Virus record (IMG/VR): IMGVR_UViG_3300036826_000176 | Span: 1-20,344 of that record | Length of the DNA stretch: 20,344 bases | Direction: 5' to 3' (one strand) | Source of the DNA: a virus | Program-made: the position numbers and the translations under genes | The notes under the pieces: model-generated | Database searches by the model: none | What the model was told of the DNA's origin: nothing | What the model saw: only the letters and a program-made list of their open reading frames with translations | Shown here: piece after piece, positions 1,514 to 12,750 of the stretch | Layout: each line of letters opens with the position of its first letter | Numbering within the stretch: position 1 is the stretch's first letter

Positions 1514-2779
1514 TCACCTCCGAGAGCCTGCAAATCCATATCTCGTCCGCGCAGACGGGGTGCTGCGCTCGTGTTGCGAGCCAAGATACGCCAAAGAGAG
1601 CGCGGTGACGCAATCATCGTGCATGCCAGACGGCGCGCCGTAGCGCAGCATGCCGGTAGCACTCACCTTGGCCTCGTACGCCAGGAGCTCGCCCGACTGC
1701 GTCGCGTCGTCCAGGAGCGTGACCAGCCCCTGCTCGATGCCCAGGGAGAGCGCCTGGACCGCCGCGGCTTTGCTGGCGTTGGTCGCCGTCCAGGAGTAGA
1801 CCGGCAGCGGTTGCCGCGGCGCGCCGATGACCCGCGGGTAGCCGCGCTGGAGACGCTCCACCAGCGGACCGCCCATGCTGTTGGCCTCCGCCACGATCTG
1901 CAGCGGCTTGTAAATCTCCGCCAGCTTGTGCAGCCGCTCGGTCTGGAACTCGTACTCGGTCTGCGAGTAGCGGTCGATGACGCGCTGTTCCATCAGCGTC
2001 GCGTCCAGGACGCTCACCACGGTGTAGTCGTTGGTGCGGCCCCAATCGACGCCGAAGACGTGGACGTGCCCGCGGGTGGGGCCGGCAGGCTTCAGCCTGG
2101 AGACCGCCCCGACGCCGCGGAAGACGCCTGCCCCCTCGACCTGCAGGAAACGCGCCTCGAACTCCTGCGCGTAGTCGCGCTCGGGCATTTCCTGCTTGGC
2201 CGCGGCGAGCTCGGCCTTACGAATGTGCGGGTTGACCGCCGTCGGCATCTGCCACGACATCCAGTCCTGCTCCTGCTCGTCCTGGCCGCGCAGGTACAGC
2301 ACGTAGAAGTCGTTCAGCCCTCGCGGGGTGCTCAGCCACCAGGACTGACCGCCCAGGTCGGCGAGCGTCGGACGCAGCGCCTGGTTCCAGATGTCCAGCA
2401 GGTTGGGCACCATCGCCGCCTCATCGACCACGATCCTGGCGTACTTCCGACCACGGGCAGGATCGCCGGTGTCCATCGACCAGCACTCTATGGTCCCTCC
2501 CCCGTACACCTCGAGCCGATGCTCCTGCTCGCTCTTGTTGGTCACCACCGGCCCCAGGAGCCGCTTGAGCTCGCGCCAGCTTTCCTCCAGGAGCTTGTAC
2601 GTCGGCCCAAACCAGCCCGCCGGCTGATGCTCGAGCGCCGTCCTGATCACGAGCTCGTGGCCCATCGTGCTCTTGCCTGACCGCCTGCCAAGGGCTACGA
2701 CGTTGTGCCGCCGCGCCTCCCGCTGAATCTGCGCCTGAGCGTTGTGCGGCCTGGGTAGCAGGACGCTGAAATCAGGCAC
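1514..2779 (-). CDS. terL: Terminase large subunit (ATPase-nuclease)
   Basis: This 421-residue protein packages DNA into the prohead by ATP-driven translocation and cuts the concatemer. The N-terminal ATPase has a Walker A GRRSGKS at residues 31-37 and a Walker B RIVVDEA at about 115-121, followed by the coupling-type segment WWLSTPRG. The C-terminal RNase H-like nuclease shows its three acidic patches: FGVDWGRTNDY near residue 250, IVAEANSMG further on, and GMHDDCVTALSLAY close to the end. Length and order match the Terminase_6 type. The start is GTG at 2779. The TGA stop overlaps the ribosome binding site of the portal gene, so the two are translationally linked. The gene is separated from the probable small terminase by a cassette on the opposite strand, which is unusual. 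Confidence 0.95.
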   Translation of the reverse strand: MPDFSVLLPRPHNAQAQIQREARRHNVVALGRRSGKSTMGHELVIRTALEHQPAGWFGPTYKLLEESWRELKRLLGPVVTNKSEQEHRLEVYGGGTIECWSMDTGDPARGRKYARIVVDEAAMVPNLLDIWNQALRPTLADLGGQSWWLSTPRGLNDFYVLYLRGQDEQEQDWMSWQMPTAVNPHIRKAELAAAKQEMPERDYAQEFEARFLQVEGAGVFRGVGAVSRLKPAGPTRGHVHVFGVDWGRTNDYTVVSVLDATLMEQRVIDRYSQTEYEFQTERLHKLAEIYKPLQIVAEANSMGGPLVERLQRGYPRVIGAPRQPLPVYSWTATNASKAAAVQALSLGIEQGLVTLLDDATQSGELLAYEAKVSATGMLRYGAPSGMHDDCVTALSLAYLGSQHERSTPSARTRYGFAGSRR

Positions 2780-2809
2780 TTGACACGCCTAGGCTATGCG
2801 GCTTACAGT
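2780..2809 (+). promoter_or_regulatory. Promoter of rightward two-gene cassette (leaderless)
   Basis: A perfect -35 TTGACA (2780-2785), an 18-bp spacer and a -10 TACAGT (2804-2809) stand exactly 7 bases before the ATG at 2817. The run ATGCGGCTTACAGTA here is identical to that in the promoter at 12273-12302. The short distance implies transcription starting at or next to the ATG. The segment GCTTACaGTAAGC is also an inverted repeat and could bind a regulator. It overlaps the start of the terminase gene on the other strand. Confidence 0.75.
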
Positions 2810-2816
2810 AAGCGGC

Positions 2817-3041
2817 ATGCAACTCGACCTCTTCGGCTCGACCGCGGGTGACGATGTCATCACGTCGGAAGCATGGCCGACCAGCTACCGCGTCGATACC
2901 CGCGGCATGTTCGTCGTCACCGCAGACGTGCCCGGCGTTGGCAAGATCGTCGCGCGTCACCGCTTCCTCTGGGAAGCAACGTGTGAGGTTCGCCGCCAGG
3001 TCGCCATCGCACTCGCGGTTCGCCCCACGGAGATGTTCTGA
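2817..3041 (+). CDS. Small protein of unknown function, first gene of cassette
   Basis: This 74-residue protein begins MQLDLFGSTAGDDVITSE and ends VRPTEMF. I do not recognise the family. The N-terminal QLDLFG followed by a short beta-rich stretch (SYRVDTRGMFVVTADVP) and a helix with Arg residues is compatible with a small globular cytoplasmic protein; no membrane segment or catalytic motif is seen. I chose the ATG at 2817 because the -10 hexamer ends 7 bases before it; an in-frame ATG at 2796 lies inside the promoter. There is no Shine-Dalgarno sequence, in keeping with a leaderless message. The stop overlaps the next ATG (TGATG), so the two genes are co-translated. They lie between the terminase subunit genes on the opposite strand and look like a moron cassette. 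Confidence 0.7.
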   Translation: MQLDLFGSTAGDDVITSEAWPTSYRVDTRGMFVVTADVPGVGKIVARHRFLWEATCEVRRQVAIALAVRPTEMF

Positions 3042-3747: not shown

Positions 3748-4635
3748 CTACGTCGCTGCTGACCTGGTGCCGGTCAGGTGAACCTTTGGTCGGCTCGGCG
3801 TACGGCAAACGTGATCGTGGCCGAAAGGCTCACCACACTCCAGACACGTACCGTGGCGCTTGGTGCAGTCGTAGTCGCCGTGCGCGACCGCCTCAGCGAT
3901 GGCGTCGGCGACGTCGCTCAGTCCCTCCAGGTCGCGCTCGAACGAGCGGCGCGAGTTCCAACTCCGATCGAAGATGTCGACCGCGCCGTTCATACGGTTG
4001 AGCACCAGGTAGCGGAACGTTGGCACGACGTCATAGGCCCGTACGTAGGCCCAACTGTACAGCAGCGGTTGCCACGTTTCTTTCTCCGCCCTGGTCGCCG
4101 ACCAGCTTCCCACGGTCGTCTTGAAGTCCCAGATCATCGGCCCATGCTGAGACCAGGGTGGACACCACAGGTCGACCGCGCCGACCAGCGGCCATGCGTA
4201 GCAGTCGGTTCCCTTCACGCCCCAGGTCGTCGGAATGCTGATACGCCGCTCGCTGCGGCTGCGGCGGTCGGCATTCAACTCCATCGCGTTCACCTGGTCG
4301 ATCTGGCGCAGCCCCTCGAAGTAGACGATGCCGTCCAGCGTCACGCCCTGCGGCTCCAGCAGCGACCGCGCCCTCTCGAACTCCTGGAAGTAGCGCGCCC
4401 TGGCGCACTCGAGATGGTCCGTGTGCGGCCCCGCCGTCACCGGACAGCCGCCCCTTTGCCCCTGGAGTAGCACCTCCAGAGCAGTGTGAACCGTGTGCCC
4501 GAACAGCATAGCTAGACTTGGCTCGGAGACCACGCCGTCGACGTAGCGTGCCTTGTACGCCTGCGGACACTGCTCGAACAGCATGAAACGAGAGGCAGAC
4601 CAGTGCTCGGTCCCGTAGCCGTAGGGGGTCACCAC
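3748..4635 (-). CDS. Cas4/RecB-like PD-(D/E)XK nuclease with cysteine cluster
   Basis: This 295-residue protein has the ordered motifs of the RecB/Cas4 exonuclease family: SASRFMLFEQCP near the N-terminus with Cys23, GHTVHTALE with His50, GAVD with Asp155, WDFKT with Asp170 and Lys172, and Gln189 followed by LYSWAY. C-terminal cysteines at 257, 264, 267 and 277, together with Cys23, are placed as in the family members that hold a 4Fe-4S cluster. Such enzymes resect or trim DNA ends in recombination and replication. The start is GTG at 4635 (a second GTG follows directly), 5 bases after AGGGAGG. The gene lies 61 bases downstream of the replication protein gene and just upstream of the small terminase. 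A role in recombination or end processing before packaging is likely; the exact substrate cannot be told. Confidence 0.85.
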   Translation of the reverse strand: MVTPYGYGTEHWSASRFMLFEQCPQAYKARYVDGVVSEPSLAMLFGHTVHTALEVLLQGQRGGCPVTAGPHTDHLECARARYFQEFERARSLLEPQGVTLDGIVYFEGLRQIDQVNAMELNADRRSRSERRISIPTTWGVKGTDCYAWPLVGAVDLWCPPWSQHGPMIWDFKTTVGSWSATRAEKETWQPLLYSWAYVRAYDVVPTFRYLVLNRMNGAVDIFDRSWNSRRSFERDLEGLSDVADAIAEAVAHGDYDCTKRHGTCLECGEPFGHDHVCRTPSRPKVHLTGTRSAAT

Positions 4636-4701: not shown

Positions 4702-7700
4702 TCAGTGCTTGTCTTCGTCGGCATAGCTCGCCACCTCTTCCGGGTCGCAGTGAACGACCACTCCCTCGACCAGCGGCTGCATCGCCGCTTCCATGTTGCT
4801 CTTCAGCCACTGCTTGCAGAGCGCCACATCGCCCTGGTCGCACTCTGCGATGAGCTCATCGTGAACCATCATCACCAGCCTTGCCGTAGGCACGCTTGAC
4901 CTGGTGTCGTACAGCCGTGTCATCGCCAGCTTGAAGCCGTGCGCCTCGACCATCTGCACCGGCGTGTTGGCCTTGACGTTGTTGCTGAAGATGCGCCGCC
5001 GCCGACGCCCCGAGCCGCTGAAGTCGATGACCTCCGCCTCGTCGCCCCACTCACCCAGGCCGCGGTGCCAGGCTCGGATGCCAGGGTAGGTCTTGAAGAA
5101 CAGGCTGCGCTGGCGCTTGGCTTCGTTCTCGCTCAGCACGATGCCGTTCTTGCGCTGCTCACGCCGAAAGGTATCCGCGCCTGCGCCGAACAGGAAGCCA
5201 AAATTGATCGCCTTCGCCTCCTGGCGCGTGCAGCCCACCGCGGCGGCGGTCGCCGCGTGAATGTCGCCGCCCGGCGTGTTCAGAATCTGGCGCATGGTGC
5301 GGTCCTCGCTCAGCCACGCCGCGATGACGAGTTGCAGTTGCGAGTAATCGGCACGGACGAAGGCGCGACCTGGTCCTGGCCGAATGCTCTTGCGCGCCAG
5401 CGTCTCGTGCGGCAGTTGCTGCAGGTTGGGGTCAGCGCAGCTTGTGCGGCCCGTCTGTGCGCCGATCGGGTTGAACGACGCATAGATGCGACCGTCTGGC
5501 GCGACCGAGCTCAGCGTCTTCCTGAGCAGGCCCATGCACGTCCCTGCCGAGCGATAGGCCAGCAGCGCGTCGATGATCGGATCGTCGCTCTGCGCCTCCA
5601 TCAGCGCGTCGATACCCGTCGAGACGAGCTCGAGACCGCGCGCCTGCAGTATCGGCAGCACCTGGCTCGGCGAGCGCCAGTTGACCGCGCTCGCGCCGAA
5701 GTCGGCGATGCCGTTGAGCTCCTGCAGCCGATCGTCCACGAGCGCCTCCTGCTCGGCGATAGCGCGCTTCAGGATGCCGACGTCGCACGGCACGCCGGCT
5801 GACGCGAGCCACCAGGTCGCTGCCTGGACGCTGCGCTCCAGGTTCAGGCACGACACCAGCGAGTCGGCGTCGGGATCGGCGAAGATGGCATCCTCGAGCG
5901 CGACCGCCGCGGCGTAGGTGACCCGCGCGTCCTCCGCGGCGTACGCGAGCTTGGCGTGCCGAAGGCTCCCTGGCGGCACGTCCCACCCGCGCTTCTGCTC
6001 GGTCTTGGCGACGTGCTCGTGCAGATGCCGCTTGGCGATGCCCTGCAGCCCATAGTCGACGTGCGCCTCTTCCGACTCCAGGACCATCGCCATCGTCTTG
6101 ACGTCCAGGATTTTGGACGGCTCGATGCTCAACCCGACCTGGGCCAGGAACGCCAGGTCGAACAGGTACGTGTGCATCCTGACCGAGCCGACCTCGTCCA
6201 GGTAGCTCTGCAGCGCCGACCAGGGCTCAGCCGTCGGGCTGTTGTGCGCGACCGCCCAGACGTCGATGACGACGTGCGTCTCGCCGTCGGACAGGTTGAT
6301 CGTCCGCAGACGATCGCGATGCGCGTCCAGTCCAGTCGTCTCGGTGTCCAGGGAGCACGCCGCGGTACTGAGCCGCGCCGTCACCTCGTTGAGCTCGACC
6401 ATGTCCAGGACCGTCAGGTACTCGAGCGTCGGCGCGGCGGCGTCCGCGGCCTCGAGCCGAGCGAGCTCGCGTGCCGCCTTCGCTTCCGCAAGTTTCGCGA
6501 CCGCTTCGGGTGTTTTGGCCTTTGCTGTTCTAGCTGTTCCGGAATTCCCCCCTCTAAAGAGGGGGGGAGAAAACCCCGGAACAGCTAGGTTTTCCTCAAC
6601 CCCCCTTAAGGGGGGTTGCTCCTGGACCTGTTCCGGAATTCCAAAATCGGCCGGAACAGCGGGAACAGCCGGAACAGCTTCGGTTTCGTGGGTGATATGC
6701 ACCTGCAGCGGAAGCCAGTACACGATCGCCTGACCGTGCTTGGCGCTCTTGACGTCGCCGCTCGCGACCATCATCTTCAGGTTTTCCGTTACGGCGGCTT
6801 TCTGCTTGCCGCTTTTGACGGTCACCTCCGCTGACGTCTTGCCTTTCGCCTCGCTGGTAGCGTCCAGGTCGCGCAGCGCCTGCAGGATGACGCCCTGCAG
6901 TCGCTCTTCTTTGGACTGGACCGCGCCGATCAGCTTGTACCGCTCGGTCTGCTTGTCGAGCTCGAGCGTCAGCGGCTCGATGCTCGCCGACATCCTCGAG
7001 CGGCAGCGCAGGATACGCAGGTTGGTGGTGTCTTCGTCGCCCTTGAACGGCTCGATCTGCAGCAGGATGTCGCAGTAGCCGCTGATGGCCGAGCTCCCAC
7101 GCCCGGCGTCGCCGACGTCGCCGCCGCTCTTGCGCGAGTGGCGCAGGATCAGCACCGCGAACCCGGCGTTGGCTAACCTGCGGATCTCATGCATCACCCC
7201 TGCCGCCTTGCCGGAGTGGTCCTCTTCGTCCAGCCCGGCGACGACGCTGAGCGTGTCCAGGACGATGACGTCCACGCCACGTTCCTGACCCTGCTCGATC
7301 AGGTCATCCACGATTTGCGGAAGGTCCACGCCCACCGGCGTCTCGAAGTCGAAGACGGTGTAGAAGCCGTCTGACTCGCCCAGGTCGCTCAGCCCGTAGC
7401 GCACCAGGTTCTGCTGGAACGTTCCCACGCCCTCTTCGGTGACGTAGCCGACGCGGATCGGACGCAGGATCGCCTTGCCGCAGTAGCTCTCGTCACCCTC
7501 GATCGCCGCGCGCAGCCCCTCCAGCGCGAAGGTGGTCTTGCCCATCTTCACCTTGGCGACGAGCTCGGTCATCAGCCCTTTGCTCAGCCAGTCCTGGATC
7601 AGCCACTCGACCTGTTCCGCGGCCATCGCCATGACATCAGGCACGGAATGCCACTTCAGACCGCTAACCCCCTTAAGGGGGTTAGGAATTGTGGTGCTAG

Positions 7701-8640
7701 CTGTTCCGGTGTTCCCACCCCTATAGGCGGAATTCCGGAACAGCTTGACGCGGATGGGTGGAACGGCCCTCTGCGCGGCCTCGCGGTAGCGAAACGCGGC
7801 GTTCCGCCGAGTCGAATACTTGTGCCAGCCGAGCGCCTCGTCACGCTCCTTGAGGATGCTGGCGACCGCCTCCAGGTCATGCAGTCCGGCGTCCCAGACC
7901 ATACGCCCGATGTCGATGAGACCCTGGCTGCGGTCCGCGGCAGCGCCGACGCCGAGCCAGACCTGTTGCTGCTGCGCGTCCAGGTCGAACGGTAGATCGT
8001 CGTCCCACGCCTCGAGCGGCTCGTCGTTCACCGATTCTCGCTCGGTCAGGTACGCCGCCTGGAAGTCTTCTATCCACTCGGGAGCGTCGACCGGCAGGAC
8101 GCGGTCGATCCACTCGTACCGACGCCCGCTCTCGTGCATCGACGGCGGCGCGACGCAGTAGCCGTCGCTCAGGACGTCGTAGCGGCTGCGCTGCGCGTTG
8201 CGGACCGACGGCATGTCGCCGCGGAGGTAGAGCCAGTGCTCGTGCCCCTCGCCGCCGCCAGAGCGGAAGTGCATCGTCCGCGGTAGGCCCAGACCGACGA
8301 AACGGGTCCACCACTCGGTCGAGTCTGGCGCTACGTCGACCAGTCCCGCGGGGCCGAGCGCGATGCCGACGTTGCCGTCGGGGTGCAGCGTCCACCAGGT
8401 CGCGATGGTCGCCTTGTCGGTCGTCGCCGACTGGTGCGCCTTGGGGCAGAGCTCGCCGATAGGGTGCTTGCCTGGCTTGCACTTGCCAGCCAGCTTGTAC
8501 TTGTCGGGGCAAGCGCACTTGCCGTCGATGATCGGATAGAGGATGAGAACGGGGTAGCCGGCGTCGGCGTATCCGAGCGCCGCAGTCAAGCATGCGCTCG
8601 TCTGCGCATTGCCACCCTCGTCAGGTGGTCTACTATGCAT
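4702..8640 (-). CDS. Prim-Pol / helicase / 3'-5' exonuclease / family A DNA polymerase fusion
   Basis: This 1312-residue protein joins a replisome's main activities. Residues about 15-200 are an AEP-type Prim-Pol domain with a Cys/His-rich insert (CxC...C...GKHP...C) and His135 in GHEHW; the usual DxD reads D102-V-A104. About 330-560 are a RepA/DnaB-like ATPase with Walker A AKVKMGKT (Lys368), whose first Gly is Ala362, and Walker B VIVLD (Asp462). About 575-645 look like a winged helix. About 755-920 are a DEDDy exonuclease: Asp765 and Glu767, Asp828, Tyr900 and Asp904. About 930-1300 are a Pol I-like palm and fingers: DYSQLQ (Asp1098), Arg1139/Lys1143/Phe1147, and VHDE (Asp1261, Glu1262). 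Residues 1103 (Gln) and 1151 (Phe) replace the usual Glu and Tyr. Both linkers (about 299-325 and 655-704) are repeat DNA. No good Shine-Dalgarno precedes the ATG at 8640. Confidence 0.93.
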   Translation of the reverse strand: MHSRPPDEGGNAQTSACLTAALGYADAGYPVLILYPIIDGKCACPDKYKLAGKCKPGKHPIGELCPKAHQSATTDKATIATWWTLHPDGNVGIALGPAGLVDVAPDSTEWWTRFVGLGLPRTMHFRSGGGEGHEHWLYLRGDMPSVRNAQRSRYDVLSDGYCVAPPSMHESGRRYEWIDRVLPVDAPEWIEDFQAAYLTERESVNDEPLEAWDDDLPFDLDAQQQQVWLGVGAAADRSQGLIDIGRMVWDAGLHDLEAVASILKERDEALGWHKYSTRRNAAFRYREAAQRAVPPIRVKLFRNSAYRGGNTGTASTTIPNPLKGVSGLKWHSVPDVMAMAAEQVEWLIQDWLSKGLMTELVAKVKMGKTTFALEGLRAAIEGDESYCGKAILRPIRVGYVTEEGVGTFQQNLVRYGLSDLGESDGFYTVFDFETPVGVDLPQIVDDLIEQGQERGVDVIVLDTLSVVAGLDEEDHSGKAAGVMHEIRRLANAGFAVLILRHSRKSGGDVGDAGRGSSAISGYCDILLQIEPFKGDEDTTNLRILRCRSRMSASIEPLTLELDKQTERYKLIGAVQSKEERLQGVILQALRDLDATSEAKGKTSAEVTVKSGKQKAAVTENLKMMVASGDVKSAKHGQAIVYWLPLQVHITHETEAVPAVPAVPADFGIPEQVQEQPPLRGVEENLAVPGFSPPLFRGGNSGTARTAKAKTPEAVAKLAEAKAARELARLEAADAAAPTLEYLTVLDMVELNEVTARLSTAACSLDTETTGLDAHRDRLRTINLSDGETHVVIDVWAVAHNSPTAEPWSALQSYLDEVGSVRMHTYLFDLAFLAQVGLSIEPSKILDVKTMAMVLESEEAHVDYGLQGIAKRHLHEHVAKTEQKRGWDVPPGSLRHAKLAYAAEDARVTYAAAVALEDAIFADPDADSLVSCLNLERSVQAATWWLASAGVPCDVGILKRAIAEQEALVDDRLQELNGIADFGASAVNWRSPSQVLPILQARGLELVSTGIDALMEAQSDDPIIDALLAYRSAGTCMGLLRKTLSSVAPDGRIYASFNPIGAQTGRTSCADPNLQQLPHETLARKSIRPGPGRAFVRADYSQLQLVIAAWLSEDRTMRQILNTPGGDIHAATAAAVGCTRQEAKAINFGFLFGAGADTFRREQRKNGIVLSENEAKRQRSLFFKTYPGIRAWHRGLGEWGDEAEVIDFSGSGRRRRRIFSNNVKANTPVQMVEAHGFKLAMTRLYDTRSSVPTARLVMMVHDELIAECDQGDVALCKQWLKSNMEAAMQPLVEGVVVHCDPEEVASYADEDKH
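6531..6587. repeat. GTTCC/GGAAC inverted repeat, element A, in linker 2
   Basis: TAGCTGTTCCGG (6531-6542) and CCGGAACAGCTA (6576-6587) are perfect 12-bp inverted arms. Nested inside is a second perfect repeat, CCCCCCTCT (6547-6555) with AGAGGGGGG (6558-6566). Read on the reverse strand, the element ends with the same GAATTCCGGAACAGCT as elements C and D, so it is an inverted copy with a different core. It is translated in frame as part of the linker before the exonuclease domain. Confidence 0.9.
6597..6618. repeat. 22-bp perfect palindrome centred on TTAA, in linker 2
   Basis: Each half is CAACCCCCCTT and its complement, giving a fully self-complementary 22-bp site inside the coding sequence. 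A close relative (half-site CTAACCCCCTT) is in the other linker at 7664-7685. Both are followed within 9-13 bases by a GTTCC/GGAAC inverted repeat. Confidence 0.9.
6628..6678. repeat. GTTCC/GGAAC element B with tandem 9-mers, in linker 2
   Basis: CTGTTCCGG (6628-6636) and CCGGAACAG (6651-6659) are perfect inverted arms. Two further 9-base units follow (GGGAACAGC at 6661-6669, CGGAACAGC at 6670-6678), so three units stand in tandem from 6652. On the coding strand the tandem units give the repeating tripeptide Ala-Val-Pro. Confidence 0.85.
7664..7685. repeat. 22-bp perfect palindrome centred on TTAA, in linker 1
   Basis: The half-site is CTAACCCCCTT and the whole 22 bp is self-complementary. 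It lies in the linker between the Prim-Pol and helicase domains and is followed 13 bases later by element C, matching the palindrome-plus-inverted-repeat order in linker 2. Confidence 0.9.
7699..7745. repeat. GTTCC/GGAAC element C, in linker 1
   Basis: AGCTGTTCCGG (7699-7709) and CCGGAACAGCT (7735-7745) are perfect 11-bp arms around a core with the small palindrome CCTATAGG. The 45 bases at 7701-7745 match 9442-9486 at 43 positions. It is read in the replication protein as about LFRNSAYRGGNTGTA. Confidence 0.92.
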
Positions 8641-8731: not shown

Positions 8732-9148
8732 CTAGCGTACTCCCGAGTGGCCCCCGAACGTCGAGACAATCTCGTCTCGATCGCGGGGTTTCCAGACCTT
8801 CCAGTCCAGGCCCGCGGCGACCAGCAAAGCGCCCCATCGACGCTGGTTGGCATCGGGATACTTGCCCTCGCCCTTGAGCTCGCGAAAGATGATTCGGTCG
8901 CCGCGGGCGAAGACCCAATCCGGCCAGCCGTCCGAGTCGTAGTGGTCGTCACCTTTACCCAATGCATGGACGCCTGTTACAGCGCCCTTCGAGAACGCGA
9001 CGTGCCAGCCGCACCACCCGTACAGGTGAGCGGTCGTCACCACGAACGACTCGAGCGCGTGCTCGTCCGGCGAGCGCAGGACGATCCTGGTCGGTGGCTT
9101 GCGCCGCGGTCTAACGATCGTCAACAGCGTCTCGACGTCTGCGGCCAT
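8732..9148 (-). CDS. VRR-NUC domain nuclease
   Basis: This 138-residue protein is a compact VRR-NUC enzyme, a branch of the PD-(D/E)XK nucleases that cut branched or forked DNA. The signature is plain: SPDEHALESFVV with its Glu near the N-terminus, then GWPDWVF, then RELKGE, then a Gln in ANQRRWGALL, and a final WKVWKP. The family acts alone or with a phage helicase on replication or recombination intermediates. The start is ATG at 9148 (MAADVETLLTIV), which lies 28 bases inside the upstream transglycosylase gene; a longer in-frame extension upstream has shadow-like composition and was not used. The next gene downstream is the replication fusion, so a job at stalled or finished forks is a fair inference. 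Confidence 0.9.
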   Translation of the reverse strand: MAADVETLLTIVRPRRKPPTRIVLRSPDEHALESFVVTTAHLYGWCGWHVAFSKGAVTGVHALGKGDDHYDSDGWPDWVFARGDRIIFRELKGEGKYPDANQRRWGALLVAAGLDWKVWKPRDRDEIVSTFGGHSGVR

Positions 9149-9558
9149 CGCCCGTACCCCAGATGGGAGACGCCCCACGCCATCGCGTCGATGCTGGCGA
9201 TGGGGTCGGTCCTGGACGCACCGGCCTTGCCCTGCGGCGTCTCGTACCAGGTCGTCAGGTCGAACTGCGCCAGCCCCAGGTACGGTCCTGACCGCGCCCA
9301 CGGTAGCCACGAGCTCTCGCCCTGGATCATGCAGTCCAGCCGTCGCGCCTGCCCCGGGTAGGTAGCGTAGAGGTACGCCTTCGGCGTCATCGGCGGAGCA
9401 TGGAGACGCTCGTCGTCCACGAGCTCTGGCTCGGGATCGACCTGTTCCGTTGTTCCAACCCCTATAGGCGGAATTCCGGAACAGCTATCCGAGCACTCGT
9501 CCACGCCATCGGTCAGAGCCTGCCCGACCAGGAGCAGACCAGCGAGTAAGACTGCCAT
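9121..9558 (-). CDS. Secreted lysozyme-like / SLT-type transglycosylase
   Basis: This 145-residue protein starts with a hydrophobic segment (VLLAGLLLVGQAL, residues 3-15) that would act as signal peptide or membrane anchor. The C-terminal 80 residues match lytic transglycosylases: CMIQGESSW with probable catalytic Glu81, then SGPYLGLAQFDLTTW and, near the end, AWGVSHLGYGRWP. It would cleave peptidoglycan glycan strands outside the membrane. Residues 25-39, between signal and enzyme, are encoded by repeat element D, the same DNA as in the replication gene linker but read in another frame. There is no obvious lipobox around Cys21 or Cys25. The gene is oddly placed inside the replication operon rather than with the membrane-protein cluster near 16500; it could serve lysis or host-wall remodelling. 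Confidence 0.75.
   Translation of the reverse strand: MAVLLAGLLLVGQALTDGVDECSDSCSGIPPIGVGTTEQVDPEPELVDDERLHAPPMTPKAYLYATYPGQARRLDCMIQGESSWLPWARSGPYLGLAQFDLTTWYETPQGKAGASRTDPIASIDAMAWGVSHLGYGRWPQTSRRC
9442..9486. repeat. GTTCC/GGAAC element D, inside the transglycosylase gene
   Basis: CTGTTCCG (9442-9449) and CGGAACAG (9477-9484) are the arms; the core again has CCTATAGG. The 45 bases match element C (7701-7745) except at two positions and in the same orientation. Here the DNA is read as about CSGIPPIGVGTTEQV, a different frame from that used in the replication gene. Confidence 0.92.
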
Positions 9559-9759: not shown

Positions 9760-9931
9760 CGAGCCACTCCTTGAGACTGTCCAGGAGCTCTTTCGCTTCC
9801 TCACGGTTGAGATAGACGCTCCAGATTTCAGCGTTCTCGTGACCGAGTTGTTCGTCGTAGAACGGTCTGTGCTGTGTGATCAGCAACGTCTGCCCGTTCC
9901 AACTCCACTTCAACTCACCGATCGGAACCAT
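9749..9931 (-). CDS. Small acidic protein of unknown function (60 aa)
   Basis: The translation starts MVPIGELKWSWNGQTLLITQ and ends KELLDSLKEWLDAD. The first half looks like two or three beta strands and the second a single acidic helix; no known motif is recognised. The ATG at 9931 is preceded by AAAGGATC about 9 bases upstream. The gene overlaps the methyltransferase end by 17 bases and the next gene by 11, so it is an integral part of the leftward operon. Confidence 0.65.
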   Translation of the reverse strand: MVPIGELKWSWNGQTLLITQHRPFYDEQLGHENAEIWSVYLNREEAKELLDSLKEWLDAD

Positions 9932-10988
9932 GAACTTGTGATCCTTTCTTGAAGACCAGGTACGTTGATCCGTTGTTGTAAGCCGAGTACCGATCGTGCT
10001 CCGCTTCCCACCGCGGATCGACCACGCCTCTGGCGCGCACCTGGTGGACCTTCTCGTAGGGGGTCGACCAGTTGAGCGCCTCGCCGACCAGTGCCGACTC
10101 TTCCTGGAACACACCGCCATGTACGCTATCGGTGATCTTGACCACGATCGCAATACGGCAGACGCGCCAGCACTCGCGCGTGCCGTTGATGATCAGGTTG
10201 TCGATGTCCTCCTGCGACATCGTGCCGAACCGCTCGCCCATGATCGAGTCTTCGCTCAGGTCGGCGAGATGCGGCGGGTCGAACAGGACGACGTCGATGC
10301 TGGCGTCTTCGTAGTCCAGGTCTTCGACCAGCATCACCCCGTCGGGCGCGCGAGATTCCTCCTTGTCATGCGCGGCCACACTCAGACCGAGCGTGCCATC
10401 GTGGAAGTTGCCCAGACCGTAGGTCGGATCGAGCGCGGTCTTCGCCGATGGGAGCAGCGTCCGCACGATCGACGTGATGACCTGCGCCGGCGTCGCCCCG
10501 ATCATGAACCGCTCCAACGGCAGCACCTGGTCGGATGCGCTCTCGACGGTCTTAGGAACAGGTCGTGGAGCGGTCGGACGCCTCGCCAGCTTGAGCGCCC
10601 CACTGACAGTCAACTCGACGCCACTGCCCTCGACCGCCGCGGCAATGTACCGCTCGAAGACCTCTTCCGGCATTCGTGCCAGCGACTGCCAACGACTCGA
10701 CTCCATTTTGTCCAGACCAAAATCCGCCAAAGTAACATCGTGTGACTTTGCTCCGCCGCGGTGAACCTCACTCTCAGTGAGCAGTTCACCACCGCGGCGC
10801 TGAGTACGGAGACGGTGTTCACAGATACGGTTCTGCTGCTCGAGCGACAGCCCGAGTGAACGCGCCAGGGCTTGCAAGGCCCCGGCACGGTCGGATTCAT
10901 TCTTGGCGTCGATCGGTGTCTGGATATCGGCGAGCCGACGCTCAAGCTCGTCAATGATCGCCAGATCAGAACGGGGGGTCGTCGTCAT
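9915..10988 (-). CDS. DNA methyltransferase (DPPH type) with helical N-domain
   Basis: This 357-residue protein has a SAM-binding motif I, DPTYGLGNF (Asp187), followed 50 residues later by the catalytic motif FDPPH (Asp237-His240). That order and the acidic-Pro-Pro tetrapeptide fit an amino-methyltransferase acting on adenine or cytosine N4. The N-terminal 150 residues carry the helical segment seen in MT-A70 and ParB-like phage proteins: RLRTQRRGGELL, DVTLADFGLDKMESSRWQ and MPEEVFERYIAA. The likely role is to modify phage DNA against host restriction, or regulation. The ATG at 10988 was chosen; the open frame extends upstream to 11300 but with shadow composition inside the SSB gene. It overlaps the SSB gene by 23 bases. 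The recognition sequence cannot be told, and no cognate restriction enzyme is present in the window. Confidence 0.8.
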   Translation of the reverse strand: MTTTPRSDLAIIDELERRLADIQTPIDAKNESDRAGALQALARSLGLSLEQQNRICEHRLRTQRRGGELLTESEVHRGGAKSHDVTLADFGLDKMESSRWQSLARMPEEVFERYIAAAVEGSGVELTVSGALKLARRPTAPRPVPKTVESASDQVLPLERFMIGATPAQVITSIVRTLLPSAKTALDPTYGLGNFHDGTLGLSVAAHDKEESRAPDGVMLVEDLDYEDASIDVVLFDPPHLADLSEDSIMGERFGTMSQEDIDNLIINGTRECWRVCRIAIVVKITDSVHGGVFQEESALVGEALNWSTPYEKVHQVRARGVVDPRWEAEHDRYSAYNNGSTYLVFKKGSQVHGSDR

Positions 10989-11625
10989 CCGCAGTCTCGT
11001 CTCCCATCGCTGCGAGCTCGGCCTGGAGCCGTGCCCGACGCTCCGCCGCGGTCTCGCGGATCGCCTCGCGTGCCATCCGATCGACGCGGTCTGCTTCGAC
11101 CGCCGCAGACGGCGCGACCGGCGCGCTGCCGTTGGTCTCAGGTGCCGCCGTCCTGGTCTGCCGCGGAACCGGGCGGAGCAACGCGAACTTGAGCTTCTTG
11201 CTGCCCGTCTTGTCGTCGGTCTCGATCGTCCAGGACGCTCGAGCACGCTTGCCGACCAGGGCACCGTCGAAGTTTTCGGCGAGCCGCTCGCACTCTTCAT
11301 CGGTGAGCTCGTGGCCCAGGAACGCCGAAGCCCAGAGCCGCGCCTTGGAGGGACCGCGCTTGCCCTTCGCCAGGGACATGCTCGAGAACTCGACCAGGTC
11401 GTAGGGAGACTGGTCGATCATGTTCAGGAACGCGACGCCGTTCGAGTCGAAGATGCGGACGTGCCACATGATCGACGTGTACGGCTTGCCGTCGATGTTG
11501 CTGATGCCCTCGTACTCGTCCATCGACATGAGCTCAACAATGTGGTCGTCCTGGGGGTCGAAGCGGTCTTCGATCGTGATTGAGAAGTTGCCACCTTCGG
11601 ATGGCTTCGTCATGCGGATCGGCAT
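10966..11625 (-). CDS. SSB-like single-stranded DNA-binding protein
   Basis: The 219-residue protein ends in GDETADDDDPPF, the acidic tip with a final Pro-Phe used by bacterial SSB and phage gp2.5-type proteins to dock partner proteins. The first 140 residues are beta-rich (NFSITIEDRFD, YTSIMWHVRIFDS, RARASWTIETDD...KLKFALL) and could form an OB-like fold. A charged, Ala-rich flexible region joins the two (about 150-205). It would coat unwound DNA and recruit the replication fusion or nucleases encoded downstream. The ATG at 11625 follows GAGGT by 6 bases; a longer version starting further upstream was rejected as shadow. The methyltransferase gene begins inside its end. The fold call is inference; the tail is seen directly. 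Confidence 0.75.
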   Translation of the reverse strand: MPIRMTKPSEGGNFSITIEDRFDPQDDHIVELMSMDEYEGISNIDGKPYTSIMWHVRIFDSNGVAFLNMIDQSPYDLVEFSSMSLAKGKRGPSKARLWASAFLGHELTDEECERLAENFDGALVGKRARASWTIETDDKTGSKKLKFALLRPVPRQTRTAAPETNGSAPVAPSAAVEADRVDRMAREAIRETAAERRARLQAELAAMGDETADDDDPPF

Positions 11626-12257: not shown

Positions 12258-12272
12258 GTACCTTGACTCCCC

Positions 12273-12302
12273 TTGACAGGCATTGGCGATGCGGCTTACA
12301 GT
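12273..12302 (+). promoter_or_regulatory. Promoter of the rightward accessory operon (leaderless)
   Basis: TTGACA (12273-12278), an 18-bp spacer and TACAGT (12297-12302) end 7 bases before the ATG at 12310. ATGCGGCTTACAGTA is identical to the cassette promoter at 2796-2810. CCTTGAC occurs twice in a row here (12261 and 12271). No ribosome binding site is seen, as expected if the message starts at the ATG. Confidence 0.75.
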
Positions 12303-12309
12303 AGGCGTT

Positions 12310-12750
12310 ATGCGATACGAACTGGACAGCGACCTGATGGTCAAAGCTGCCAAGGAATACGGCAAGGCGCACGGCTTCAGGGGCAACCACGGCGGCTGGA
12401 TTTCCAACGCCGACGGCACCACCACGGTGCAGGGCTGGTGGCTTTTCTTCCGCACCCACTCGAGCCTGATCCTGGACGAGCTCACCCGTCGCCTGACCGC
12501 CTTCGACACCCTGGACGACATGGTGCTGCACACCGCGCCGACCTACCGCCCGACCATCCGCCCAACGACCTGGCGTGAGCGCCTCCTGGCCGACGCCTAC
12601 GACTGGCGCATGGCACGCCGCGGCGACGATCGCCGCGCCTACCGCGGTCTCGACGCCCGCTGCCGCTGCGGTCACGGTCCGAGCCGCCACTTTCACGCCG
12701 ACGGCAGCAGCACCTGCACCGTCTGCCCTTGCAAAGGAGCACGCGCATGA
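12310..12750 (+). CDS. Unknown protein with C-terminal Cys/His zinc cluster
   Basis: This 146-residue protein begins MRYELDSDLMVKAAKEYG. The C-terminal 30 residues contain a compact zinc-binding pattern, CRCGHGPSRHFH followed by CTVCPC. The middle has a helix-rich region with LDELTRRLTAFDTLDDMV. No family is recognised for the N-terminal part, though GGWISNADGTTTVQGWWLF looks like a beta hairpin. The start at 12310 follows a promoter without a leader; an ATG at 12289 lies inside the -10 region. The stop overlaps the next start (ATGA). As first gene of the rightward operon it is a candidate early protein. Confidence 0.75.
   Translation: MRYELDSDLMVKAAKEYGKAHGFRGNHGGWISNADGTTTVQGWWLFFRTHSSLILDELTRRLTAFDTLDDMVLHTAPTYRPTIRPTTWRERLLADAYDWRMARRGDDRRAYRGLDARCRCGHGPSRHFHADGSSTCTVCPCKGARA

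Follow-up and report, generated by a model that had tools for sequence, protein, structure and literature searches.

The window, meaning the whole stretch of DNA analysed here, is a linear IMG/VR virus record of 20,344 bases with a G+C content of 65%. On its minus strand it holds a frame of 1312 codons, running from 8640 to 4702 without interruption, which encodes a Prim-Pol domain, a RepA-like helicase, a DEDDy exonuclease and a family A DNA polymerase (Pol A) in one chain (Table 1). All four Pfam matches exceed the curated cut-offs, and a PHROGs search agrees with these domain calls. The four-domain fusion in one frame that had been proposed in an earlier note, with no strand given, was thereby confirmed. 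No convincing internal translation start was found in the gene; a GTG at codon 968, within the polymerase domain, is the sole candidate that has a Shine-Dalgarno-like stretch.

We considered that separate genes might have been fused by mis-assembly or missed stop codons, and found no evidence for this. The G+C content at third codon positions is 0.82-0.87 and even along the gene where it is read in phase, and seven other full-length copies, whose contigs come from at least six metagenome samples, contain no stops. As the same fusion is present in independent contigs at 96% (L022), 63% (L020), 59% (L018) and 50% (L026) identity to the window protein, it is neither a chance product nor an assembly artefact, and the probability of such an error is practically negligible.

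With regard to the gene neighbourhood, the contigs share a syntenic order comprising a methyltransferase-like gene, an SLT-like gene, a nuclease, the fusion, a PD-(D/E)XK exonuclease and the small and large terminase subunits; terminase genes are present in the window. The fusion-bearing contigs are one group of related phages. The C-terminal half of the gene at 9915-11300, which lies close to the replication genes and is syntenic in the relatives, matches phage DNA methyltransferase PHROGs (phrog_954). A 52-bp repeat in the window (2779-2830 and 12272-12323, 79% identical) contains TTGACA and GCGGCTTACAGTA, which is suggestive of a common promoter or operator.

The nuclease genes on either side of the fusion could point to a role in repair or recombination-dependent replication rather than as the main replicase. 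We consider this very improbable, as neither another polymerase nor another replicative helicase turned up in the window, or in the contigs by family search, and as a primase with a RepA-like motor is a replication set of plasmids and phages (PMC4538821). Neither the window nor eight related contigs matched the profiles for SSB (PF00436), DnaB_C (PF03796) and Helicase_C (PF00271), whereas the controls gave matches; since all these contigs are fragments, such absences are weak evidence. The SSB-like protein previously placed in the same operon was thus not recovered. The "near-complete replisome" that had been suggested is overstated: the four domains stand, but no member of the SSB, DnaB and Helicase_C families was found in the nine fragmentary contigs, and the Prim-Pol domain has lost one motif I acid, which makes priming uncertain.

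Table 1. Features of the fusion gene and its surroundings (window positions; aa, residues of the fusion protein).
Feature	Position	Strand	Basis or remark
PD-(D/E)XK exonuclease, directly downstream of the fusion, syntenic in relatives	3748..4635	minus	PF12705 E 5e-16
Fusion gene, 1312 aa	4702..8640	minus	intact frame, Pfam, relatives
Family A DNA polymerase domain, aa 961-1288	4777..5760	minus	PF00476 (DNA_pol_A) E 4e-48; PDB sequence matches
DEDDy 3'-5' exonuclease domain, aa 743-914	5899..6414	minus	PF01612 (DNA_pol_A_exo1) E 2e-15
Linker 2, aa 643-710, right edge of helicase cassette	6511..6714	minus	hairpin z -7.6; exchange edge
Palindrome type A, linker 2, arms CTAGCTGTTCC / GGAACAGCTAG	6530..6588
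Palindrome type B, linker 2, AACCCCCCTTAAGGGGGGTT	6598..6617
Palindrome with tandem GCTGTTCC arms, linker 2	6626..6679
RepA-like helicase/ATPase module, aa 341-640 (AAA_25 341-506)	6721..7620	minus	PF13481 E 3e-17; phrog_239, phrog_3123
Linker 1, aa 296-330, left edge of helicase cassette	7651..7755	minus	hairpin z -5.1; edge in two pairs
Palindrome type B, linker 1, AACCCCCTTAAGGGGGTT	7666..7683
Palindrome type A, linker 1, AGCTGTTCCGGAATTCCGCCTATAGGGG...CCGGAACAGCT	7697..7747
Helical segment after Prim-Pol, aa 222-295	7756..7977	minus	conservation; PriCT_1 at that place in G013
Prim-Pol domain, aa 21-189	8074..8580	minus	PF09250 E 3e-25
Prim-Pol motif I, D102-V-A104, Ala for second metal-binding acid	8329..8337	minus	alignments
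Nuclease gene (phrog_93 endonuclease), directly upstream of the fusion, syntenic in relatives	8732..9310	minus	phrog_93

Catalytic motifs and the altered Prim-Pol domain

The Walker motifs, the DEDDy exonuclease set and all three Pol A motifs described in the earlier note were each found intact. By eye, the window protein contains Walker A KMGKTT and Walker B VIVLDT, a complete D-E-D-D-Y set in SLDTETTGL, HTYLFDLAFL and YAAEDARVT, and the Pol A motifs A (RADYSQLQL), B (RQEAKAINFGFLFG) and C (MVHDE). All relatives retain K-x-GKTT and D-T in the helicase, and the catalytic residues of Exo I-III and of Pol A motifs A, B and C are invariant in eight proteins. Within motif B (aa 1140-1153, window 5182-5223), the O-helix reads KAINFGFLFG, which we take to place a phenylalanine at the positions of both Tyr766 and residue 762 of the E. 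coli enzyme; NFGFLFGAG is a good marker of the fusion-polymerase clade.

The Prim-Pol domain matches PF09250 over the whole profile (1-158/158) and exhibits a Cys-rich CACPD...CKPGKH stretch, SGGGEGHEHW as motif II and YD as motif III. In archaeo-eukaryotic-type primases (AEPs), motif I has the form hhhDhD/E, and motifs I and III hold the catalytic metals and are reported to be essential (PMC4538821). The window sequence, LVDVAP, departs from this form. The DVA version is common to all five Prim-Pols of the clade in the alignment (window, L022, L020, L018 and L026), whereas all eight outside homologues (seven plus G013) have DxD. The arginine after the motif III aspartate is also missing in the clade, which has DVL where most outside sequences have DxR. 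In contrast, the histidine of motif II (sxH) and the aspartate of motif III (hD) are kept, SGGGEGHEHW and YD155 aligning with the outside homologues. As one motif I acid is absent, priming activity is doubtful. We regard the domain as an AEP homologue by descent and make no claim to catalytic membership; the "Prim-Pol core" recognized earlier holds by homology to PF09250 but not by its catalytic residues, which are DVA instead of DxD/E.

These substitutions raise the possibility that the domain only binds DNA, at the origin or on the lagging strand, and that a host primase or RNA polymerase does the priming. With a motif reported as essential (PMC4538821) lacking one acid, the primase part may be dead, and the loss of both the acid, throughout the clade, and the arginine fits this explanation. 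Nevertheless, the domain is 63-67% identical to those of L020, L018 and L026, and is conserved about as much as the other domains; together with the retained motifs II and III, this indicates that it is under selection. The Cys-rich stretch is also kept, and a sister sub-lineage bears an AEP with intact motifs (see below), which suggests that priming is useful. We give a binding-only domain somewhat less than an even chance. It is a variant of the single-chain replicase proposed below, and both can be true together. In either case, the activity of the domain is probably altered in this clade, judging from the alignments.

The helical segment that follows the Prim-Pol domain is possibly equivalent to PriCT-1, and it is the sole confident part of the AF2 model of the window's N-terminal region. 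AF2 predictions for this region of the window protein and for the N-terminal domain of L028, with pLDDT values of 46 and 41, respectively, are too poor to judge the active sites, and searching PDB sequences with these parts returned nothing beyond chance matches.

Relatives and domain architectures

The fusion is real and rare. In INPHARED (50,697 phage records), no place covered 80% of the fusion protein, and none of these phages has the fusion. The best match involved the Exo-Pol A part alone, at 27% identity, and the N-terminal 650 residues matched separate Prim-Pol or helicase genes, for instance the Prim-Pol and ATPase "repA" proteins of MW202444 and MW202867. In Microbacterium phage Ilzat, helicase and Pol A are encoded by separate genes. 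Among metagenomic viruses the fusion does occur: a search of IMG/VR with the conserved polymerase pattern NFGFLFGAG returned 13 stretches and at least seven full-length relatives, namely L022 (same contig as L002), L020, L018, L026 (same contig as L003), L028, L019 and L030. Six are distinct, L019 and L030 being near-identical. The copies L025, L029, L024 and L023 run off the contig end, and the contig of L021 (G011) contains an apparent further L028-type copy, seen in part. A wider search gave 48 Pol A loci and no further fusion of such size, with open frames of 388-1060 aa outside the clade, none as long as the fusions. In bacterial genomes, the sole match of a pattern-limited search was a 25% identical Pol A in a Rhodospirillales MAG.

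Three architectures were observed. Type I (window, L022, L020, L018 and L026) has the order Prim-Pol, RepA-like helicase, Exo and Pol A. Type II (L028, L019 and L030) has the same helicase type, Exo and Pol A but starts with an unrelated domain for which Pfam gave no family. As this domain matches phage DNA primases (phrog_9765, E 5e-16; Javan630, Vibrio phage V6Aob) and keeps DxD, STH and D..R motifs in alignment, with FDIDD in L028, we read it as another AEP. Type III (G013; L065 3070-7767) combines Prim-Pol (with DFD), PriCT-1, DUF3987, Exo and Pol A in one frame of 1566 aa; no close further fusions of this type were found. The Exo-Pol A parts of types I-III form one clade with a support of 99/100 in a tree with several long branches. 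L026 groups in this part with the type II proteins (98/95), which in this one tree suggests that type II arose through replacement of the Prim-Pol domain.

Helicase cassettes and palindromic linkers

Two pairs of relatives differ mainly in their helicase. Between L020 and L018, identity reaches 99% over the N-terminal part and 97% over Exo-Pol A, against 54% over the helicase; for L028 and L019, the values are 95%, 90% and 52%, respectively. At the DNA level, the identity of L020 and L018 is about 97%, drops to about 60-70% between residues ~300 and ~700, and returns to above 90%. In both pairs, the exchange is bounded on the left at AAGCT, just ahead of the palindrome of linker 1, and on the right just past the palindromes of linker 2. 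As these edges are shared, the helicase segment and both linkers move as one cassette. The helicase of L026 is distinct again (25-31% identity to the others). Whole modules have thus been exchanged among phages of this group at the two linkers rich in palindromes: the helicase segment and, on one occasion, the primase domain.

The linkers carry two types of palindrome. Type B, ACCCCC-N(1-6)-GGGGGT, occurs 16 times in a set of 288 kb (14 contigs, the window included), and 16/16 of these lie in linker 1 or 2, compared with none in 20 dinucleotide-preserving shuffles of the set. It is absent from G004, G006, G007 and G013; G010 and G012 stop short of the linkers. In the window and the contigs of L020, L018, L028, L025 and L021, AACCCCC...GGGGGTT palindromes flank the helicase-coding part at a distance of ~1.05-1.08 kb. 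The arms of type A are phage-specific: linkers 1 and 2 of one phage share 16-32 7-mers, whereas linkers of different phages share 0-12, apart from the sister pair G002/G003 (20-28). In linker 2 of G013, repeated ACCCGTCGATTC arms and an inverted copy show a similar style in other letters. The type A repeat, with GCTGTTCC/GGAACAGC arms, has three copies in the window, all in frame; in addition to the two linkers, it is present at 9442-9486, inside the SLT-like ORF (9121-9558). Relative to shuffled sequences, the hairpin z was -2.7 to -5.1 for linker 1 in six lineages and -2.4 to -7.7 for linker 2, except in L026, where it was -0.5 over 201 nt, yet a local 18-bp stem is present. Control segments from Exo-Pol A were mostly within 2 SD. 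The palindrome might have been a repeat widespread in viral contigs, an explanation that we rejected: the 15-mer at its core was found in 19 IMG/VR stretches and, apart from that of the near-identical relative L022, each had it at one position only; these single occurrences are probably due to chance.

Four meanings of the palindromes are possible. They could be recombination joints, mobile palindromic elements tolerated in the linkers, sites of initiation by the AEP, or hairpins that act in the mRNA by slowing translation from one domain to the next. Initiation sites would resemble ssiA and ssiB of RSF1010, which serve an AEP primase located beside a RepA helicase (PMC4538821). As the palindromes coincide with the exchange edges, the first two meanings are favoured; as they are moved along with the cassette, they may be passengers as well. 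We infer that the linkers serve as joints for recombination and are not just passive spacers. A bolder proposal, which we find rather doubtful, is that the palindromic linkers are dedicated swap joints, with cassettes carrying their own matched arms on both sides, and that the Prim-Pol domain works in some way other than normal catalysis.

Alternatively, the two long linkers could be the places where the chain, of about 143 kDa at full length, is cut into separate AEP, helicase and Exo-Pol A enzymes. Long, poorly conserved linkers between well-conserved modules would suit such a polyprotein, and PREX, the apicoplast DNA polymerase of Plasmodium, provides a precedent of processing in the passages of PMC7689252 considered here. 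However, the linker peptides are only 17-38% identical among relatives outside the closest pair, so that no common cleavage site is visible, and none of the genes in the window was identified as encoding a protease. Cleavage at the linkers therefore appears unlikely.

The single chain and known replicases

As a whole, the locus is best explained as encoding a single-polypeptide phage replicase, a reading that we hold to be fairly probable. The RepA-like motor in the middle of the chain would unwind DNA, as its intact Walker motifs suggest, and the C-terminal Exo-Pol A, with its complete motifs, would copy it with proofreading. The N-terminal AEP-type domain would bind the single-stranded template and make or position primers. 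The loss of the motif I acid could mean that primer synthesis is weakened, that another residue is used, D106 being a candidate, or that the domain binds the template or origin while a host enzyme primes. These activities are predicted from the motifs, and the chain would work uncleaved.

The fusion deserves attention for its clean cassette exchange, palindromic joints and altered Prim-Pol domain. The relatives constitute a natural experiment, with backbones that are 97-99% identical and have the helicase as their main difference; others among them combine matching backbones with primases or helicases of different types. They would allow tests of which domains need to co-evolve, of what a Prim-Pol without the full DxD does, and of whether palindromes within a gene promote module exchange.

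Among known systems, PREX also joins a primase-helicase to Exo-Pol A and is among the best PDB sequence matches of the window Exo-Pol A. Its primase-helicase is of the TOPRIM/Twinkle type. The fusion polymerases form a clade without PREX, 8jrb and cellular-type Pol I, although the position of PREX itself is unsure owing to long branches. The fusion therefore looks like a separate solution, in line with the view previously taken of it. The Pyrovirus (OS3173/TOSV) polyprotein, of 1606 aa, likewise fuses a viral helicase region to Exo-Pol A, but its N-terminal helicase region (DUF927) belongs to another family; the passages of PMC7689252 considered here name "primase and/or helicase" motifs and no Prim-Pol domain. 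Pyroviruses are also distinct in being viruses of thermophilic Aquificae. The N-terminal half of the window protein resembles proteins that combine Prim-Pol and ATPase (the "repA" proteins mentioned above, ORF904 of pRN1 and gp43 of corynephage BFK20), which differ in having no Pol A and, in those aligned, an intact DxD. No open-access paper was found on a chain that unites Prim-Pol with a RepA-like helicase and Pol A; such fusions may be described in papers under subscription.

The closest functional parallel is GP55 of lactococcal phage 1706, a demonstrated four-in-one replicase of 1317 aa with more than 1000 homologues (NAR 2025, PMC12205980). Both are single chains of similar length with a helicase, an AEP-type primase, a polymerase and a 3'-5' exonuclease. 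In GP55, however, the order is helicase, AEP, alpha-helical domain and family B polymerase, and the AEP motifs are reported to be conserved (PMC12205980). Having a family A polymerase, the window fusion is not a member of the GP55 type, but by analogy it may work in the same way. The different solution proposed in the earlier note, which did not name GP55, accordingly lies in the combination with Pol A and not in the one-chain design, for which this family B precedent has been tested (PMC12205980). A replicase in one chain, demonstrated for GP55 with its family B polymerase, thus appears to exist with a family A polymerase as well.
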